64,000 nt of DNA from Acidimicrobiales bacterium AG-414-N20 (GTDB lineage Bacteria > Actinomycetota > Acidimicrobiia > Acidimicrobiales > MedAcidi-G1): positions 1 to 64,000 of the forward strand of contig QCLO01000002.1 in the NCBI GenBank assembly GCA_003214465.1. Direction: 5' to 3'. The position numbers were made by a program, and so were the translations under genes. Positions 5,122-27,874 of this stretch are shown piece by piece. Every line of letters starts with the position of its first letter. The first letter of the stretch is position 1. The notes under the pieces are model-generated. The model did no database searches, was not told the DNA's origin, and saw nothing but the letters and a program-made list of their open reading frames with translations.

Positions 5122-7078
5122 CCAGAGATCGAAGTTTTAATTTAGTTTTTTTAAAATCAGAGCCAAGAATTCCACTCGGAAGCCTTATTGCCGCTATTAA
5201 AAGAAACAAACCACTAAATGTCATTTGGTTAGCTGATCCAGAGTCGCTGAATTGCCCTAAAAGTACAGTTAAGACACCCCCAGAAGCTAAGACCCCTGCT
5301 AAAAGCGCTCCTGATGGCATTGATATACCTGCCAAATAAACAACAGCGATTACGATCATCGAGTCGAATAAACCAAATGATCGAGCTGAAATTATTTGTC
5401 GCTGATAACCAATTAAAGTTCCTCCAATTCCTGCTAAAAATGCTGATAATCCAAATGCTGTTAATTTTGCTCTAGCTACATTGATCCCGATAGAAGATGC
5501 TGCACGCTCATTGGCTCTTACTGCCAACCATTGTCGACCAGTTATTCCACTTCTAACGCTGAACAGTAGAAATAAACATAAAGCCAGTATTACGAGAACA
5601 AGTATTACAAAGGGACGTCTGGGATAATCGGTTCCTACAGCACTGATACCTAGATCTAAACCAAATATTGAAGGAGCCGGCATTCGTGTTCCAAAATCTC
5701 CTCCAGTTAACCATGGCCAACGGAATAACAGCTCTTCAATTGCAACCGATGCGGCCAAAGTAGCAACTGCTAACTGAAGACCACGAATCCGCACTGCTAT
5801 AAGACCAACTGAAACTCCGACTATGACGGAAAAAACTGATGCTATAAGAGGGGCTAGGGGGAAAGGTAGGACGCCAAGTCGAACTGTCATAAATGCAGCT
5901 ATACCTGCAAATGCGTATGTAGCAAGAGATACCTGTCCAACAAAGCCAGTTATAACAACTAATGAAGAAGAAACAACTGCTACACAACCCGAGACTGCGA
6001 TTGCTAATCGCCACTCGCTTCCTGTTAAAAAAGTTACTACTACTGCTGCTATAAGGAATATAAAAGGCTTCACGGGAATATTTTTTGTGTCCGAGACTTT
6101 TGGCAAATGAGTTACAAGTTCTGTCCCTCTTAAAGGAAGGGTTTCTCCCCAAAAAGCTAAAACAAACAAAATTATTAGAAGAGGAACCCCTTGTTGAATT
6201 CCAATATCGGGTAACCATGACCACTCAACTTGGATGTTCATTAATTCTGACTGAAGCATCCCGATACACAAACCCGCAAAAGCTGCAACCAAAAATGAAC
6301 TAAGTCTTGCTAAAAGTGCGGCTGCTAGAGCCGGAACAATTAGGAAGCTTGCTGCATTCACATCTAATCGTGTTGCCGGTCCTGCAAGAATCATTAAAAA
6401 CCCACAAGACATTGAAGCAATAATCCAGTTAATTGCACCAATTTTTTTAGGCGAAATTCCTACCAGGTAAGCTCCACGCTCATTTTCGGCAACCGCTCGA
6501 CTTTCTCTACCAAATTTTGTATACCTATAAGTAATCGCAAGGAATAAAGCGATAGTCAGAGTAATCACAACCATCCATATTCTGTCTTGGTTGATTCTGA
6601 TATCGCCTATTTGAATCAAACCCTCTGGGAGAATTCCGTCTATTACCAGTCCTGTTGCACCTTGTGCCCCAATTCTGAGTCTCGCAATTTCCATCAAATA
6701 TATAAGTAGACCCAATGATGCTACTAGTGCGCTTAATGGTGGTGAATTTCTTAGCGGTCTGACAATGAAGAAATAAATAACTACTCCCATCAATGCAGCC
6801 AAAATCATGCACGCTGTCAATGCGGTAGCAACAGTTGGTGATGAAATTATCGAAAGTCGATCGGGTAGACCTATAACAGGAAGAATTAATTCGCCTGTAG
6901 ATCTCAGTTCATAAAAAGCAACTGCTATATACATACCCATTGCGGCATGCGCAAGATTCAATACGCCACTGGCCCGATGAGTTAAAACTAACCCGATCGC
7001 TATTGAACCAATTACCGCTCCCGTCCCGCAACCAAGAAAGAGATAAGTTAAATGTTCACTAATCGGATTTCCTATCAA
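5111..7078 (-). CDS. Branched-chain-amino-acid-type ABC permease, LivH-LivM fusion
   Basis: A 655-residue integral membrane protein. The N-terminal half (about 1-300) resembles LivH, with many hydrophobic helices and the GLVLTHRASGVLNLAHAAMG entry segment. The C-terminal half (about 330-640) resembles LivM (GQVSLATYAFAGIAAF, and an EAA-like RANERAASSIGINV loop). The start is TTG at 7076-7078, overlapping the TGA of the binding-protein gene, so translation is coupled. No LivG or LivF ATPase is found in the window, so the importer must borrow ATPases encoded elsewhere. Substrates of this class include amino acids, urea, amides and small aromatic acids. Confidence 0.85.
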   Translation of the reverse strand: MIGNPISEHLTYLFLGCGTGAVIGSIAIGLVLTHRASGVLNLAHAAMGMYIAVAFYELRSTGELILPVIGLPDRLSIISSPTVATALTACMILAALMGVVIYFFIVRPLRNSPPLSALVASLGLLIYLMEIARLRIGAQGATGLVIDGILPEGLIQIGDIRINQDRIWMVVITLTIALFLAITYRYTKFGRESRAVAENERGAYLVGISPKKIGAINWIIASMSCGFLMILAGPATRLDVNAASFLIVPALAAALLARLSSFLVAAFAGLCIGMLQSELMNIQVEWSWLPDIGIQQGVPLLIILFVLAFWGETLPLRGTELVTHLPKVSDTKNIPVKPFIFLIAAVVVTFLTGSEWRLAIAVSGCVAVVSSSLVVITGFVGQVSLATYAFAGIAAFMTVRLGVLPFPLAPLIASVFSVIVGVSVGLIAVRIRGLQLAVATLAASVAIEELLFRWPWLTGGDFGTRMPAPSIFGLDLGISAVGTDYPRRPFVILVLVILALCLFLLFSVRSGITGRQWLAVRANERAASSIGINVARAKLTAFGLSAFLAGIGGTLIGYQRQIISARSFGLFDSMIVIAVVYLAGISMPSGALLAGVLASGGVLTVLLGQFSDSGSANQMTFSGLFLLIAAIRLPSGILGSDFKKTKLKLRSLVKS

Positions 7079-8529
7079 CCAATTTCAGCAAATAAAGAGG
7101 GTGTATCTATCCATCCTTCATGTGCGGGCACAAGCTCTCCCTCTTCTATAGAAAAAAGGAGTTGTTGGGGGGCGCATAAGGAAGATAGACCTGGTATCTG
7201 ATTACCGTCACAAGTGTATGGATGACCCCAGAAACTCGGTCTTTGATTCGAACTACGAATAAGTTCAATTAGCGACTCACTGCTTATACCTGTATCACTT
7301 TGATCTAGTTCAACCAGAAGAGCATAAAGATTTAGAAAACCTCGCATACTAACGGTTCCAACGCCCCCTGCAGGGTCAGACGCATACTGCCATACAACTT
7401 CATCGTAGATACTGCTTTCTAGACTTTCTTCAAGAGGTCCTTCAGAATTGAAAAGAACTGATTCAATAGCGCTTCCTGCTACTTCTTGAATTTCTTCTGC
7501 TGCACAAGCTCCTACTAAATAAAGTTGAGCTTCAATACCAAGTTCTACCATTGTTTGCATAACAGGTGCACAAGAGAGGTCAGCGGCAGCTACCACTATG
7601 GCATCTGGGTTGAACTCTGCTGCTTTTGTCAGAACCGGTAGAAAATCGAGACTGAATAAAGGAAAAGGAATCACCTCAACTTCGAGACCAAGAGATTCAG
7701 CAAGTGCAGCTCCATAATCTCTAGTTGCGATTGTAAATGATTCAAATTCACCATGAGCGAGCACAATACGCGATGCGTCTAGATATTCAATTGCATGCCC
7801 AATGAAACCTCCATAGCCGCCAGGTGTAGCCCCGCTAAAATAAAAAGCAATTGGTGATTTCATTTCAACCATGTTGGCAGGTATACCTCCCACTATTGGA
7901 ATTCCGTTTTGTTCAAGAATTGGTAAAGATCCGTTACTACCCACGTCGATTCCTGTAGTTATTGCTACAACACCAGCCATAACCATTTCCTGAGCACAAG
8001 ATTGAGATTTCTCTATTGAAAAATCTGTTATGCAGGTCACAAGCTCAATCGGTCTTCCGTTAATCCCACCAAGCTCTGAGTTAACCCAATCTGCTGCAGC
8101 TTCAATCGCTACACGTGCTTCAGGAAAAGAACCAGCGGGTGAATTTTCCATATTTATTAGACCTACTAAAACAGGATCAAGATCAAAATCAGCCTTTACC
8201 GCTACAACTGGCAATTGACCCATAAACCAATTACCGTCCCAATCTTGAGAAAGACGACCTACAACAGTCTCTAAATCAGGAGCAACAGTCGTAGTCGGAG
8301 CAACAGTCGTAGTCGGAGCAACAGTCGTAGTCGGAGCAACAGTCGTAGTCGGAGCAACAGTCGTAGTCGGAGCAACAGTCGTAGTCGGAGCAACAGTCGT
8401 AGTCGGAGCAACAGTCGTAGTCGGAGCAACAGTCGTAGCAGGGGCAACAGTCGTAGTCGAGCTTTCACTGCAAGAAACAGCTACAAGAACGATGAGCATA
8501 CATAACAACTTTGTTTTAGAAACTAACAT
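7075..8529 (-). CDS. Branched-chain-amino-acid-type ABC substrate-binding lipoprotein
   Basis: Periplasmic-binding protein of the Leu/Ile/Val type I fold, 484 aa. A signal peptide ends in a lipobox at VAVSC (C20). Residues about 23-84 form a low-complexity linker of ten six-residue TTTVAP units, and the ligand-binding fold starts near 110 (VLVGLINMENSPAGSF). The linker should hold the binding domain away from the membrane. The gene is coupled to the fused permease downstream. Lipid-anchored proteins with such Thr/Val/Ala/Pro linkers are common in Acidimicrobiia-like genomes (established only from memory). The ligand is unknown. Confidence 0.85.
   Translation of the reverse strand: MLVSKTKLLCMLIVLVAVSCSESSTTTVAPATTVAPTTTVAPTTTVAPTTTVAPTTTVAPTTTVAPTTTVAPTTTVAPTTTVAPDLETVVGRLSQDWDGNWFMGQLPVVAVKADFDLDPVLVGLINMENSPAGSFPEARVAIEAAADWVNSELGGINGRPIELVTCITDFSIEKSQSCAQEMVMAGVVAITTGIDVGSNGSLPILEQNGIPIVGGIPANMVEMKSPIAFYFSGATPGGYGGFIGHAIEYLDASRIVLAHGEFESFTIATRDYGAALAESLGLEVEVIPFPLFSLDFLPVLTKAAEFNPDAIVVAAADLSCAPVMQTMVELGIEAQLYLVGACAAEEIQEVAGSAIESVLFNSEGPLEESLESSIYDEVVWQYASDPAGGVGTVSMRGFLNLYALLVELDQSDTGISSESLIELIRSSNQRPSFWGHPYTCDGNQIPGLSSLCAPQQLLFSIEEGELVPAHEGWIDTPSLFAEIG
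8281..8460 (-). repeat. 18-bp tandem repeat (10 units) coding for the TTTVAP linker
   Basis: Ten consecutive 18-bp units. The first eight on the plus strand are identical (agcaacagtcgtagtcgg). The last two differ by a few bases and encode ATTVAP and TTTVAP. The array lies fully in frame inside the binding-protein gene, so gain or loss of units changes linker length without frameshift. The near-perfect identity suggests recent expansion by slippage or recombination. Confidence 0.95.
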
Positions 8530-22331: not shown

Positions 22332-24065
22332 CTATGCGTCAATCGTCACGGTCCCTGTTGAACCATCAACAGTAATGGTAGAACCATCGGTTATACGATC
22401 AGTTGCATCTGTCACCGATACAGCACAAGGAATTCCAAGCTCTCTGCTTACTATCGCCGCATGACTAGCAACTGCACCAACATTTACTACAACGGCTGAC
22501 GCTGTCATAAACAAAGGCGTCCAAGATGGATCAGTCGTCGGAGCAATCATGACATCGCCAGGTTCAAGTGATGAAGCATCACTTGGATCCAAAATGACTC
22601 TTGCTGTGCCAGTAGCGATACCTGGTGCCCCTGCACTTCCCTGTAATACTTCTCCTACTTCTGCCGGACCAGACTTATTAGCACCTCTTTTTGGCCATTC
22701 AGAAATTGGTGGTATCCCAACTTTTCCGTCGACGATGTAAGGAGGCTCAACTTCATGAAGGAAAGAAAAATCCTTATCTCTTTCCAAAATTATTTCCCTC
22801 ATTGACATTGGGTCAGCGATAAAATCATCTAGTTCTGCCTCGGTAACCATAAACAGTTGCTGAGGATCATCAATTGCGCCCGCCTCTACCATTCTCCTAC
22901 CTAGCTCCATCATCGCTAACTTTGCTTCATGAACTGAACGAATAGCAGCATTTTTACCCATTTCTCGGTAGCCAAAGAAAAGAGCAGCTGATTTGATCGC
23001 CGCCGCAAGACTAGCGTGTGTTTCCTCATCGTCTTTCACAAGATCTAGCACTTCTGCAGTTAGTTTTTCTCGCGTTTTAGCTGACTCAACAGAAGCCATA
23101 TGTGGCGACTTATCATCTTCTTGGAAACGTAAGCGCTCCAACATTCCAAGTGGAAGTTCAGGTTTCGTCGTCCAGGAATGCGACCTCATGTCCCATTCGT
23201 TAGGTCCACGATGGCCACACTCCTCTATTAGTTCTTCCCAATCTGTAATAAAGCTTTTAGCGTCATCGGAGTTTAAAGATTTTATTTTTTCTAACGCTTC
23301 AGCACTCCCAGCATCAAAAATAGTTGAAAGTTCTTCTGAGTTTCGAATGATTCTGCTCAAATCCCACATGCGAAACGAAGCTGCAGCAGATTCAACGTCT
23401 CCAACTGCAGACATAAGCTTCACAGCATCATCGGAACGTCCAATTCCATCACAAATAGCCTGAACAGCCCCCGGCCCAAGTGAGCAGGCTAATGCTGCTA
23501 CACAAGATGGTACCCAAACATATTCAAGCAACTCAACCATTTCACGTGCATATCTAACTAGCTCTTCATTAGATGACTCACTGTGATTTGGGCGATTTTT
23601 CACAGCATCTCGAGCTACTTTAGATCTTTCTTCCATCATTGGATAATCATCCGTACTCATTACCCAGGCCATACTTGCAGCCACTAAATCTTCAGCTTCT
23701 TCTTTAATATCTTCAGGATGTTCTTCATATTCAGGAACATCGGAACGTTCACCAAAATAAGCCAAATTTATTGCTTCTGGCGTAGCTCCAGGCATTCGAA
23801 CCCCGAAAACCCAAGTCATCGAAAGACAGTTATAGAAATATCCTCCCCAAAGTCCGAAAGTGCTTCGTGCCTCGTGGGGGAATTCGTCCAGATCAAAAAC
23901 TCCATACTCCACATATCCGCCAGCAACTCCAGGACAGCAACCTTTCTCCCAAGCCAAAGTCCAACCAAGTGGACTCCATGGATCTGGACCTACCTCGTCT
24001 GCATTTCCACGCGTGTAATAACGAAACCTTTCATTAAATGGACTATCCGTAATCCAGCTTTCCAT
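22332..24065 (-). CDS. PEP-utilising-type phosphohistidine swivel protein, no ATP-grasp domain (paralogue 2)
   Basis: A 577-residue paralogue of the protein at 12538-14274, similar in length and along its whole sequence: RYYTRGNADEVGPDPWSPLG at the N-terminus, ECGHRGPNEWDMRSHSW in the middle and VNVGAVASHAAIVSREL at the end with H535 as the likely phospho-histidine. Again no ATP-grasp domain is fused or adjacent. It is divergent from the candidate selenoprotein gene. That two copies sit within 10 kb, each near a P450, supports a role in one catabolic route with two branches (inference). Confidence 0.75.
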   Translation of the reverse strand: MESWITDSPFNERFRYYTRGNADEVGPDPWSPLGWTLAWEKGCCPGVAGGYVEYGVFDLDEFPHEARSTFGLWGGYFYNCLSMTWVFGVRMPGATPEAINLAYFGERSDVPEYEEHPEDIKEEAEDLVAASMAWVMSTDDYPMMEERSKVARDAVKNRPNHSESSNEELVRYAREMVELLEYVWVPSCVAALACSLGPGAVQAICDGIGRSDDAVKLMSAVGDVESAAASFRMWDLSRIIRNSEELSTIFDAGSAEALEKIKSLNSDDAKSFITDWEELIEECGHRGPNEWDMRSHSWTTKPELPLGMLERLRFQEDDKSPHMASVESAKTREKLTAEVLDLVKDDEETHASLAAAIKSAALFFGYREMGKNAAIRSVHEAKLAMMELGRRMVEAGAIDDPQQLFMVTEAELDDFIADPMSMREIILERDKDFSFLHEVEPPYIVDGKVGIPPISEWPKRGANKSGPAEVGEVLQGSAGAPGIATGTARVILDPSDASSLEPGDVMIAPTTDPSWTPLFMTASAVVVNVGAVASHAAIVSRELGIPCAVSVTDATDRITDGSTITVDGSTGTVTIDA

Positions 24066-24155: not shown

Positions 24156-24662
24156 ATGGCGCGTATAGAAATTCCTGAAGGTGAAGGAAACGAAGTTAAT
24201 AGGATCTGGTCAATAGCGCCTCACATGGGTGAAGGGGTGCATGCTTTAAGTAAAGCCGTTTATGAAAAAAGTGGTCTACCTATCCGTGAACGTGAAGCCG
24301 CTAGGATGCGGATCGCTCAATTAAACGCATGCGATATATGACTGAATACAAGAGCTGCATCGGCGATGGAGCAAGGATTTGATGAGGATCATTATCATTC
24401 AGTTCACTTATATGAGGAGAGTCAGTCTTTTACAATTCGTGAAAAATTAGCGATCGAATACGCTGAGTGTTTTGCTCTTGACCATAAAGCTATAAATGAC
24501 AAATTCTTTATTCGCTTAAAAGAACATTTCACTGAAGAAGAAATTCTGGAACTAACTGTCACAATAGGTTTTTGTATTGGAATGGGAAGAGCATTAACAG
24601 TTTTGGATGTAGCACAGGACTTTGACATCAATTGGAGTCGTGAACCAAAGAAGCAAACGTAA
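24156..24662 (+). CDS. Carboxymuconolactone decarboxylase/AhpD-like protein with in-frame TGA (candidate selenoprotein)
   Basis: Read through the TGA at 24339-24341 the frame gives a full 168-residue CMD-fold protein. The first part (61 aa) ends ARMRIAQLNACDI, the TGA follows, and the frame continues LNTRAASAMEQGFDEDHY up to TAA. In the AhpD/CMD family the active site is E-x11-C-x2-C. Here E, then 11 residues, then C, two residues, then the TGA, so the stop replaces the second cysteine precisely. Both halves match the family, and the second alone would lack any sensible start. A hairpin lies behind the TGA. TGA is an ordinary stop in neighbouring genes, so the code is not reassigned. A nonsense mutation or read error is the alternative. 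Members act as peroxidase partners or thiol oxidoreductases. Start ATG follows agggag. The P450 gene begins 3 bases after the stop. Confidence 0.7.
24354..24372 (+). promoter_or_regulatory. Candidate bacterial SECIS hairpin
   Basis: The RNA gctgcatcggcgatggagc can fold into an 8-position stem with one G-G mismatch and a GGC loop (24362-24364). The loop begins 20 bases after the TGA, close to the roughly 18-base spacing I recall for the E. coli fdhF element, and it opens with G as SelB-bound loops do. A U in the loop, present in fdhF, is lacking. The element is inside the coding frame, as expected for bacteria. Confidence 0.45.
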
Positions 24663-24665
24663 ATC

Positions 24666-25838
24666 GTGACATATTCTCATGTAGAAAGAGCTAACGATCT
24701 AGAGCCGTCTGATGGTCACCGAATCTTACGCGAAGAATGCCCTCTTCATCATGAAGAAAATTTTGACCCGCCTTTTTACGTTGTAAGCAAACATGATGAT
24801 GTGCTTGAGATTTTAAAATCTCCAGAACTGTGGGGAAACTCAGATGGTCCTGGTGTTTTTTATCAAAGAGGTGGCGTCTTAGGGTCAACAGATGATCCTG
24901 ACCACGCACGTCAACGTCGGGTGCTTAGAGAAGTTTTCCTTCCTTCAAGAATGCGCCTACTCGAAAAAAGACTTGAAACAATCTGTGACGATTTGTGGAA
25001 AACTTTTGAAAAACCTGGAGAAGGGGATTTTGTGGAGATTTTCGCATTTCCTTTTCCCGCACTGGCAATAGCTGAAATTCTTGGTGTTGATCCAAACGAT
25101 CGTGAAAAATTTCATAAATGGGCTGACGATATTGTTGCCGGTCTAGGCGGCGGTGACCTGAAGCTTGTTGATAAAGCTAATCAGGAGCTATGGGAATATA
25201 TCGACGATCTTGTAGAAACGAGACTCATATTGATGGACCAAGGTGATCAACTACCTGAGGATGCTATTTCAACAATGACAATTGCCTTTTCAAAAGGAGA
25301 CCTTTCGAGAAGAGAAATTCAACGGTTAGGCCATCAACTTCTTGTTGCTGGACACGAAACCACTGCAAGCCTTCTTGCTCTTATGGTGTACAGACTTTCT
25401 TCGCAACCAGAGCTACTTGCAAGCCTAAAAAATAACCCAAAATTGATTGAACCTGCTGTCGAAGAATTTCTTCGTTTCGACTCACCAGTTCAAGGATTGT
25501 TTAGAACTAATTCAAAAGCTTGCCCAGTTCGTGATTCGGTAATTCCCGCCGGAACAAAGCTCCAAGCAATGTTTGCTTCTGCCAATCGAGACCCGGAAAT
25601 CTGGAATGATCCTGACTCAATCAGGTTTGATCGTGATCCAAAACTTGCTCGACAACATCTTGCTTTCGGATGGGGTGTCCACTATTGCATAGGCGCACCT
25701 CTAGCGCGATTGGAAGCTCGTTTAGCTTTAAAGAAAATTGTTACATCAGATACAACGCTTGAAGTTTTAGAGGATCCCCCTACAACTCCTCCGTTTATTC
25801 TTCGTGGATTTACAGAACTTAGGATCAAATGGAATTAA
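24666..25838 (+). CDS. Cytochrome P450
   Basis: Soluble P450, 390 aa, shorter than the other two. It has LLVAGHETTASL in the I-helix, EFLR (ExxR), and FGWGVHYCIGAPLARLEAR at the heme with ligand C341. Start is GTG 3 bases after the stop of the CMD-like gene, so the two are almost surely co-translated or at least co-transcribed. That pairing is worth noting: a thiol/selenol peroxidase-type protein next to an oxygenase. It converges on an SDR gene with a 2-base gap. Confidence 0.95.
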   Translation: MTYSHVERANDLEPSDGHRILREECPLHHEENFDPPFYVVSKHDDVLEILKSPELWGNSDGPGVFYQRGGVLGSTDDPDHARQRRVLREVFLPSRMRLLEKRLETICDDLWKTFEKPGEGDFVEIFAFPFPALAIAEILGVDPNDREKFHKWADDIVAGLGGGDLKLVDKANQELWEYIDDLVETRLILMDQGDQLPEDAISTMTIAFSKGDLSRREIQRLGHQLLVAGHETTASLLALMVYRLSSQPELLASLKNNPKLIEPAVEEFLRFDSPVQGLFRTNSKACPVRDSVIPAGTKLQAMFASANRDPEIWNDPDSIRFDRDPKLARQHLAFGWGVHYCIGAPLARLEARLALKKIVTSDTTLEVLEDPPTTPPFILRGFTELRIKWN

Positions 25839-25840
25839 AA

Positions 25841-26650
25841 CTATTCCAACAATTCTGGTCGCGCTGAAGCTAAATACTCAATATCAAAAGCTGAAGGAAG
25901 TTTCTGTGTTGAAGCGGCTCCATCTACGACTATGGTTTGACCAGAAATATAACCTGATTCTTCTGAGGCTAAAAAAAGAGCTGCGTTCGCTATATCTTCA
26001 ACACTCCCCATTCTCCCCAAAGGTGTTTGAAGTCGTGCTGCTTCAATTACTAACTGGTTTTCAAAAATTCCTTCTGTCATCGGAGTTTCGATTAAATGAG
26101 CGGCAATACAATTGACTCTTACTTGATCTGGTCCGTATTCTAAAGCCGCAATTTCAGTGAAATATTCAAGTCCGCGTTTACAAGCAGCATAAATAGGATG
26201 TCCTGTAGAAGGGTTGTGAGCTGTCAAAGATGAAGTGGAGATTATTGATCCACCTCCACTGGATGCCATAGCATTTCCAAAATGCTGAATTACCTGCGTA
26301 GCAGCTATCAACTGAACTTCGACCATGGGTTGAACATGATCAGGCGTTAATTCTCGAATCCTTTTTGACTCTTGATACCCCGCATAATTGACAACTACGT
26401 CAATTGTTCCTTCGTCCTCCATAATTGAATTCACAAGATTTTTTACTTGTTCGTCTTCAACGACATCGCACCCAAAACCTTTTCCACCAAATTCTTGTCC
26501 TACCTGTTCGGCCAGTTCTGCGCGCCTACCAACCACTATGACTTTGGCTCCATGCTCCGCAAAAAGTTCAATTGTGGCTCTACCAAAACCTGTGGCACCA
26601 CCTATTACAACACTTACTTTATTTTCTAGTCTCTGCTTTGTTGAATCCAT
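25841..26650 (-). CDS. Short-chain dehydrogenase/reductase (SDR)
   Basis: Classical SDR, 269 aa from the ATG at 26648-26650. GGATGFGR at 17-24 (glycine motif with Phe for Ile), NYAG for NNAG at 88-91, Ser 140/141, Y154 and K158 (YAACK). R42-R43 after strand 2 suggest NADP. A GTG at 26683 gives a longer frame that overlaps the divergent gene. The chosen ATG itself overlaps the divergent ATG inside a CCATGG palindrome. Its role is probably oxidation of an alcohol produced by the adjacent P450s (inference). Confidence 0.8.
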   Translation of the reverse strand: MDSTKQRLENKVSVVIGGATGFGRATIELFAEHGAKVIVVGRRAELAEQVGQEFGGKGFGCDVVEDEQVKNLVNSIMEDEGTIDVVVNYAGYQESKRIRELTPDHVQPMVEVQLIAATQVIQHFGNAMASSGGGSIISTSSLTAHNPSTGHPIYAACKRGLEYFTEIAALEYGPDQVRVNCIAAHLIETPMTEGIFENQLVIEAARLQTPLGRMGSVEDIANAALFLASEESGYISGQTIVVDGAASTQKLPSAFDIEYLASARPELLE

Positions 26651-27476
26651 GGATCTTGAGCGTAACCTCTCTAGCGTGAACACACTAAAAAAATTTCAAC
26701 TTGATAATAAAGCCGCAGTTGTTACAGGCTCCGGACAAGGTATTGGTCGCGGTATTGCTCTGGCGTTAGCTGATGTTGGAGCAAATCTAGTAATAAATGC
26801 CCGAAGAGAAGGCGATGTCTCTGAAACAGCCCAAATGGTTCGTGATCTAGGTAGCGAAGCAATTGAAATAGTCGGGGATATCAGAGAAATAGGGTCTGAA
26901 GCTATAGCTGATGCTTGTGTTGATGCTTTTGGAAGTCTCGACATTTGGGTAAATAACGTAGGTGGTACTGATGAAAAACGTAATCGCACTCTCCTTGACA
27001 CTCCAGATGAGATCTTTTCAAGCCAACTTGATTTAAATCTGACTACTGCATTTCAGGGAACAAAAGCTGCAGCTAATCGAATGCCTGAAGGAGGATGCAT
27101 TATAAATATTTCTTCAGGTGCCGGTATGAGAGGATCTGCCTTTACTGGCCCTTATGCAGCTGCAAAAGCTGGGATGCTGAATATGACTGAAACATTTGCT
27201 CTAGAACTGGCGGATAGAGACATTCGAGTTAACGCTGTTTCACCGGGGCCAGTAATTACTGAGGCCTATCAAGAAATGGTGGATGTGAACGAAGAAAAAG
27301 CGAGACAAATCGCTGCATCAATACCTCTCGGTCGCTTGGGTTCTCCCGATGACATTGCTACTGCAGTAGTTTTTTTATCCTCAGATGCATCATCATGGAT
27401 AACAGGGCAAAATATATTGGTTTCAGGCGGTAGAACGCATCGAACTGTGCAATATCAGGACAAAAAATCATCTTAA
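26649..27476 (+). CDS. Short-chain dehydrogenase/reductase (SDR)
   Basis: Classical SDR, 275 aa from the ATG at 26649. TGSGQGIG at 26-33, NNVG at 102-105 (V for A), S155, Y169 and K173 (YAAAK), C-terminal ITGQNILVSGG. R52-R53 suggest NADP. A GTG at 26676 (giving MNTLKKFQL) is an alternative start and would free a short gap between the two divergent genes. A still longer open frame upstream is a shadow of the opposite gene. It is followed after 29 bases by the epoxide-hydrolase-like gene and then a HAD phosphatase gene. Confidence 0.8.
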   Translation: MDLERNLSSVNTLKKFQLDNKAAVVTGSGQGIGRGIALALADVGANLVINARREGDVSETAQMVRDLGSEAIEIVGDIREIGSEAIADACVDAFGSLDIWVNNVGGTDEKRNRTLLDTPDEIFSSQLDLNLTTAFQGTKAAANRMPEGGCIINISSGAGMRGSAFTGPYAAAKAGMLNMTETFALELADRDIRVNAVSPGPVITEAYQEMVDVNEEKARQIAASIPLGRLGSPDDIATAVVFLSSDASSWITGQNILVSGGRTHRTVQYQDKKSS

Positions 27477-27505: not shown

Positions 27506-27874
27506 ATGACACCTTTAGAAACTGTAGAAGCATTTATATCGTCACTTGAAAAAAAGGATGTCGATTCTGCTATCGCTCTGCTTCATGAAGATTGTGAATA
27601 TGACAATGTCCCCATGGGGAAAGTTTTCGGATCAAATGCTGTTAAGGAAATGTTAGGTCCCATGATTGAAAATTGTTCGAATGTTGATTGGCCTACACAC
27701 CGTTCATCTAGTACTGGTAATTTGGTTTTTAATGAACGTTTAGACAGGTTTGAAATGGGTGGTAACTGGATTGAGATTCCAGTTTGTGGAGTATGGGAAG
27801 TTGTAGATGGCAAAATTACGCTTTGGCGAGATTATTTTGATCTTGCAACTTATAGAGATCAACTTCCCAAGTGA
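27506..27874 (+). CDS. Limonene-1,2-epoxide hydrolase-like (SnoaL-fold) protein
   Basis: A 122-residue cone-shaped alpha+beta protein. The LEH catalytic R-x-D pair is seen as R78 and D80 in NERLDRF, and the third acid is D109 or D112 in WRDYFD. In limonene epoxide hydrolase an Asp-Arg-Asp triad activates water to open an epoxide. Together with adjacent P450 and SDR genes this suggests epoxidation, hydrolysis and oxidation of an alkene (inference). Clear ribosome-binding site (taggaga). The stop overlaps the GTG start of the next gene by 4 bases. A plain SnoaL-like isomerase is the alternative. Confidence 0.8.
   Translation: MTPLETVEAFISSLEKKDVDSAIALLHEDCEYDNVPMGKVFGSNAVKEMLGPMIENCSNVDWPTHRSSSTGNLVFNERLDRFEMGGNWIEIPVCGVWEVVDGKITLWRDYFDLATYRDQLPK

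Follow-up and report, generated by a model that had tools for sequence, protein, structure and literature searches.

Reading frame and features of the locus

The window, i.e., the whole stretch of 64,000 nucleotides analyzed here, corresponds to C2:1-64000 of genome G000, a draft assembly of 1.81 Mb in 59 contigs that is 84.9% complete. A scan of the full 64 kb yielded only one TGA with plausible coding on both sides, at 24339-24341. This codon lies in a gene, hereafter Sec-CMD, whose surroundings include the following features:

22332..24065, - strand: PEP-utilising mobile domain gene, divergent from Sec-CMD (Pfam PF00391)
24156..24662, + strand: CMD/AhpD-like gene, very probably a selenoprotein gene (single frame with one internal TGA, Pfam CMD match, AlphaFold2 model)
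24330..24332, + strand: TGC codon of Cys59, proposed to resolve Sec62 (unchanged across the 32 aligned homologues)
24339..24341, + strand: TGA codon at the second redox position of C-x-x-U, predicted to encode selenocysteine, Sec62 (homologue alignment)
24354..24372, + strand: bacterial SECIS-like hairpin, GCUGCAUC-GGC-GAUGGAGC (conserved pairing in Sec-form homologues)
24666..25838, + strand: cytochrome P450 gene, GTG start (Pfam p450, E 7e-30; order kept in the genus)
27506..27874, + strand: limonene-1,2-epoxide hydrolase-like/SnoaL protein gene (Pfam LEH, E 1.5e-32)

The frame at 24156-24662 (+) runs from ATG to TAA and encodes 168 aa, with codon 62 as its lone internal TGA. Its product matched Pfam CMD (PF02627) over residues 22-104 (E 9.5e-10, 38.8 bits against a cut-off of 23), so that the domain spans the TGA, and it carries the AhpD signature as E47-x11-C59-x2-U62, the TGA taking the second Cys place of E-x11-C-x2-C. 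A preliminary description of this DNA had claimed an in-frame TGA at the second active-site Cys, with homology on both sides and a frame open to a TAA, and the coordinates, the motif place, and the domain match across the TGA bear this out. We consider it very likely that the gene encodes a selenoprotein with an AhpD-like fold and, judging from the comparative evidence, almost certain that selenocysteine (Sec) would be inserted at codon 62. The read-through protein would then include the Sec-containing peptide IAQLNACDIULNTR, as well as AASAMEQGFDEDHYHSVHLYEESQSFTIR.

A true stop would imply either a decayed gene or two genes, the first of 61 aa and the second, re-initiated at ATG 24366, of 98 aa. 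Under translation table 11 the frame does end at the TGA, with an ATG 24 bases further on; however, this codon lies inside both the CMD domain and the CxxC/U motif, and the comparative data below weigh further against termination.

Conservation of the TGA column

Besides G000, 8 MAGs of the genus, including marine actinobacterium MedAcidi-G1 and Acidimicrobiaceae MAGs, carry the TGA at the identical codon (protein identity 89-97%; genus loci L080-L087 duplicate the MAGs of L049-L056, with equal identities, and did not enter the count as separate cases). The gene has one inner TGA and no other internal stop in 9/9 genus genomes. Stops at varied positions in close relatives had been named as a refuting outcome, and all nine instead carried the TGA at one exact column. 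A single TGA also lay inside the match in 16/16 family genomes having the gene, and 12 order-level genomes from further away had TGA at the same column. Order-wide, 37 of 148 genomes were matched at 1e-15, the nearest being TGA forms and the farther ones mostly Cys forms, while a plasmid search returned only distant relatives (≤39% identical). Across 32 aligned sequences, E47, C59, and U/C62 were invariant, and the only codons at the aligned Sec column were TGA, TGC, or TGT, the far C6 paralogue aside. This CMD match on C6 of G000 was rejected as the same gene, i.e., it is a distant paralogue at 28% identity with the motif missing at the aligned place.

Within the genus, Nei-Gojobori estimates gave dN/dS far below 1 both upstream and downstream of the TGA (for L051, 0.047/0.665 before and 0.020/0.605 after), which indicates in-frame translation beyond the TGA. 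The same TGA has persisted in the genus and across families despite much synonymous change, and both of its flanks are under purifying selection. Together with the Cys codons in the homologues without TGA and the Sec machinery described below, this leaves a true stop very improbable. A sequencing or assembly error of a TGC or TGT codon might be suspected in a draft genome of 59 contigs, but eight MAGs of the genus, each assembled separately, and other members of the order have the TGA at this codon and no further internal stop in the gene; we regard such an error as extremely improbable.

Sec and Cys forms are interleaved within the order. A tree of 32 sequences, built without the Sec column, required no fewer than 3 switches between Sec and Cys (bootstrap range 3-4) compared to 10.4 after shuffling, these counts being without direction. 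Examples are one clade in which L026/L028 are Sec forms and L029/L032/L033 Cys forms, and another in which L023/L025 are Sec forms and L035/L038 Cys forms. The preliminary description had called for a homologue search and a CxxC or CxxU alignment, and an alternation of CxxU and CxxC is what that search found. Three genomes (G112, G144, and G076) also hold a second, diverged Sec-CMD copy (L073, L076, and L077) with the TGA at the same column, flanked on one side by genes for a branched-chain-type ABC transporter and on the other by one for an AMP-ligase.

A covarying SECIS-like hairpin downstream of the TGA

The hairpin consists of two arms (24354-24361 and 24365-24372) closing a GGC loop (24362-24364) whose first base is G, with 12 bases separating the TGA from the stem and 20 bases separating it from the loop G. 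This is the spacing given in the preliminary description, and comparison of homologues recovered a covarying bSECIS-like hairpin at that place. Taken alone, the window hairpin folded no better than shuffled sequences (z -0.86), because of one G.G mismatch, which is common to the genus. Support for the hairpin comes from comparative analysis, not from single-sequence stability: among 24 distinct Sec-form sequences, the eight pairs were formed in 88.5% of cells, and Sec forms displayed two-sided changes at 6/8 pairs. Covariation reached 0.334 compared to 0.150 when shuffled (0/500) and was lost when the partner was slid. In the 17 Cys-form sequences, the same columns paired in 31.6%, no better than shifted columns, and the first loop base was G in 27/27 Sec forms. 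Conservation and covariation of this kind are what selection on a bacterial SECIS should produce. Pairing was weaker in some distant paralogues (L073, L076, L077, and L090), which may use a shifted hairpin. Rfam gave no match over the 64 kb window; lax matches over the Sec-CMD gene were of a chance snoRNA type and were rejected, Rfam being unhelpful on bacterial SECIS elements.

Selenocysteine machinery in the same genome

The preliminary description had proposed looking for selA, selB, selD, and tRNA-Sec in the same genome, and all four were found. The tRNA-Sec shares its contig with the window (C2:137495-137586), scored 64.1 bits against an Rfam cut-off of 47, and was called by ARAGORN as tRNA-SeC with anticodon tca. 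SelB scored 284.9 bits against a cut-off of 242, its gene being directly downstream of a selA-like gene, which was named from its sequence and its position beside selB. SelD scored 374.7 bits against a cut-off of 125, and its own frame contains one TGA (...SHGAGUGCKL...), which we take to be the usual Sec site of SelD selenoproteins (GAGUGC). This selD (L019, G000:C13:31464-32384) is thus itself a selenoprotein gene, and the class V aminotransferase-like (NifS-like) gene directly upstream is a possible selenium supplier.

UGA is still a normal stop codon in G000: TGA is the terminal stop of 3/14 genes around the Sec-CMD site. An internal TGA could in principle stand for Trp or some other standard amino acid, through a code change or readthrough; against this stand the nearby genes ending in TGA, the tRNA-Sec with anticodon TCA, and homologues with Cys, not Trp, at this place, and we give this reading next to no weight. 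All of the refutation tests named beforehand that were run favored Sec.

We also evaluated the distribution of the machinery across genomes. tRNA-Sec was present in 11/12 order-level TGA-form genomes tested, the twelfth (G119) having selB, and in 10/12 genus or family TGA-form genomes; it was not found in G151 (78% complete) or G155 (69% complete), both of which were searched for tRNA-Sec alone. By comparison, tRNA-Sec was missing from 8/17 Cys-form genomes, and no selB was detected at 1e-50 in 3 tested Cys-form genomes, all without tRNA-Sec. Overall, the TGA form goes with the machinery, whereas the Cys form is found both in genomes that have it and in genomes that lack it.

Fold, active site, and family placement

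The protein combines a CMD domain with a predicted AhpD-like all-helical fold. AlphaFold2, run on a 32-row alignment with Sec modelled as Cys, gave a pLDDT of 92.4, and the best PDB folds identified by Foldseek were the AhpD-like PA0269 (TM 0.76/0.87) followed by other AhpD-like proteins; the AhpD-fold debrominase Bmp8 appeared at ranks 27, 29, and 31. Pseudomonas aeruginosa PA0269 (PDB 2O4D/2IJC) is the closest match in both sequence and fold, and shares the E-x11-C-x2-C site. Its relay comprises Glu36, Cys48, Tyr50, Cys51, and His55, with both Cys and the His called invariant in AhpD-like proteins (PMC3141380). In Sec-CMD, however, the relay His place, four residues after the second Cys, is occupied by Arg66, which was invariant in 32/32 sequences, Sec and Cys forms alike. 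Whereas PA0269 has Cys and His55, Sec-CMD thus has Sec and an invariant Arg in a longer chain. Since the Glu, the first Cys, and the Cys/Sec place are retained and the His is not, we assign the protein an AhpD-like fold and redox site within a distinct subfamily, for which peroxidase chemistry is not assured.

A two-Cys peroxidase/adaptor mechanism has been proposed for Mycobacterium tuberculosis AhpD. This protein shares the Glu-x11-Cys-x2-Cys logic with Sec-CMD, but is a weak fold match and has Cys, not Sec. Its chain topology also differs (PMC3141380). The top NCBIfam match was NF053654, "YciW-related (seleno)protein", a family annotated as possibly including selenoproteins; membership was rejected as the score (E 1.7e-17, 63.7 bits) was far under the curated cut-off of 310.

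P450 coupling and gene neighborhood

Only 3 bases (24663-24665) separate the Sec-CMD stop from the P450 start, and the two genes are likely on one transcript. The preliminary description had presented this coupling as new; it is real and kept across the genus, where 8 other genomes likewise have Sec-CMD closely followed by the P450, but it is limited to the genus. The genus gene order runs from the divergent PEP-utiliser through Sec-CMD, P450, and SDRs to a limonene-epoxide-hydrolase/SnoaL-like protein and a HAD-type protein, some of the loci compared ending at contig ends. Outside the genus, no relative of the 24666-25838 P450 was found beside Sec-CMD. The neighbors there include a BCAA-type permease, CoA-transferase III, nitroreductase, Rieske, and AMP-ligase or epoxide hydrolase genes, and P450 coupling was rejected as a family-wide rule.

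The neighbor kept furthest outside the genus is instead the PEP-utiliser gene, a homologue of which (53-60% identical) adjoins Sec-CMD in L021 and L022, where the P450 is no longer its neighbor. Its product in the window has 577 aa, with the PEP-utilising mobile domain C-terminal and no other recognised Pfam domain.

The wider island contains a second P450, a Rieske oxygenase, a nitroreductase, MaoC, and CoA-transferase III. A terpenoid-type catabolic island, as the preliminary description put it, is plausible given the LEH-domain protein, the two P450s, Rieske, CoA-transferase III, and MaoC. The LEH-domain protein (27506-27874) is the strongest hint of terpene-like or epoxide substrates in the island. 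Elsewhere in the window, the listed SDR ORF at 26388-27476 overlaps an antisense SDR (25841-26683) and probably begins about 300 bases further in. The product of 7075-8529 is predicted to be secreted; its signal region is followed by some ten TTTVAP repeats, probably a linker before an ABC-type substrate-binding domain.

Proposed mechanism and role

In the mechanism we propose, SelB with Sec-tRNA(Sec) would recognise the hairpin 12 nt past the UGA and insert Sec62, giving C59-x-x-U62. By analogy with AhpD-type enzymes, the protein is likely a thiol/selenol oxidoreductase, in which Sec62 would most likely be the attacking selenolate and Cys59 would most likely resolve it to a selenenylsulfide, with a cellular dithiol or thioredoxin-like donor perhaps recycling the pair. 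The likely job, suggested by gene position, would be to reduce peroxides or an oxidised intermediate arising from the apparently co-transcribed P450 in monooxygenase-based catabolism.

How closely this job is tied to the P450 is a separate question. Gene position makes service to the P450 pathway about an evenly balanced proposition; as the coupling is genus-limited, the function need not be P450-specific, and a P450-specific role is hinted at only within the genus. Given catabolic neighbors both in and beyond the genus, a role in oxygenase-based catabolism is a fair inference.

Alternatively, the selenoprotein might perform a reductive step on the catabolic substrate itself, such as reductive dehalogenation or quinone/epoxide-like reduction, rather than an antioxidant one. 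Bmp8 among the structural matches, the catabolic genes adjoining Sec-CMD elsewhere in the order, and the replacement of the relay His by Arg are all consistent with this, but Bmp8 is one of many matches, the nearer ones are AhpD-like, and the neighbors vary; we consider this reading unlikely. More tentative still is the idea that, in the Arg-type (His-less) subfamily, Sec serves a specialised reduction of an intermediate of the P450 pathway, such as reductive dehalogenation or reduction of an oxidised product, and not general peroxide defence. If true, selenium would directly serve the breakdown of recalcitrant marine organics.

Relation to known selenoproteins and significance

Selenoproteins of the AhpD-like/CMD family have been known since 2005, and Sec-CMD is a well-supported further member. 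Sargasso Sea data from 2005 included CxxU AhpD-like (COG2128) and CMD-domain (pfam02627) selenoproteins, with 27 and 4 sequences, respectively (PMC1088965), and the 2008 GOS survey listed 299 AhpD-like 1 (COG2128) and 70 AhpD-like 2 (pfam02627) selenoprotein sequences (PMC2398784), in agreement with the preliminary description, which had placed selenocysteine forms of CMD/AhpD-like proteins in marine metagenomes. The family is also listed in 2022 and 2026 reviews (PMC9312934, PMC13188914). These Sargasso and GOS proteins, which are metagenome reads and were compared with Sec-CMD through their published descriptions, share with it the CMD/AhpD domain, the CxxU motif with Sec in second place, a SECIS directly after the UGA, and a marine source. 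They are possibly the same genes seen as fragments, and the pfam02627 match suggests that Sec-CMD belongs to the AhpD-like 2 or CMD group.

Beyond those data sets, the present locus assigns the gene to a host lineage whose genome also encodes the Sec machinery, gives its operon context, and shows Sec and Cys forms switching inside a single order. In the open-access literature searched, we found no paper tying AhpD-like/CMD selenoproteins to Acidimicrobiales or to P450s, and the many P450s of the host's family have been treated without mention of selenium (PMC10205998). No report was found of the marine Acidimicrobiales host, the invariant-Arg subfamily, or the tight P450 coupling throughout one genus. 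Since translation table 11 splits the gene in two, ordinary gene calling would hide both Sec-CMD and the use of selenium by a marine actinobacterial lineage. The repeated exchange of Sec and Cys within one order, in otherwise similar proteins, provides a natural set for asking what Sec confers, and the pairing with a P450 a concrete place to test what it brings.
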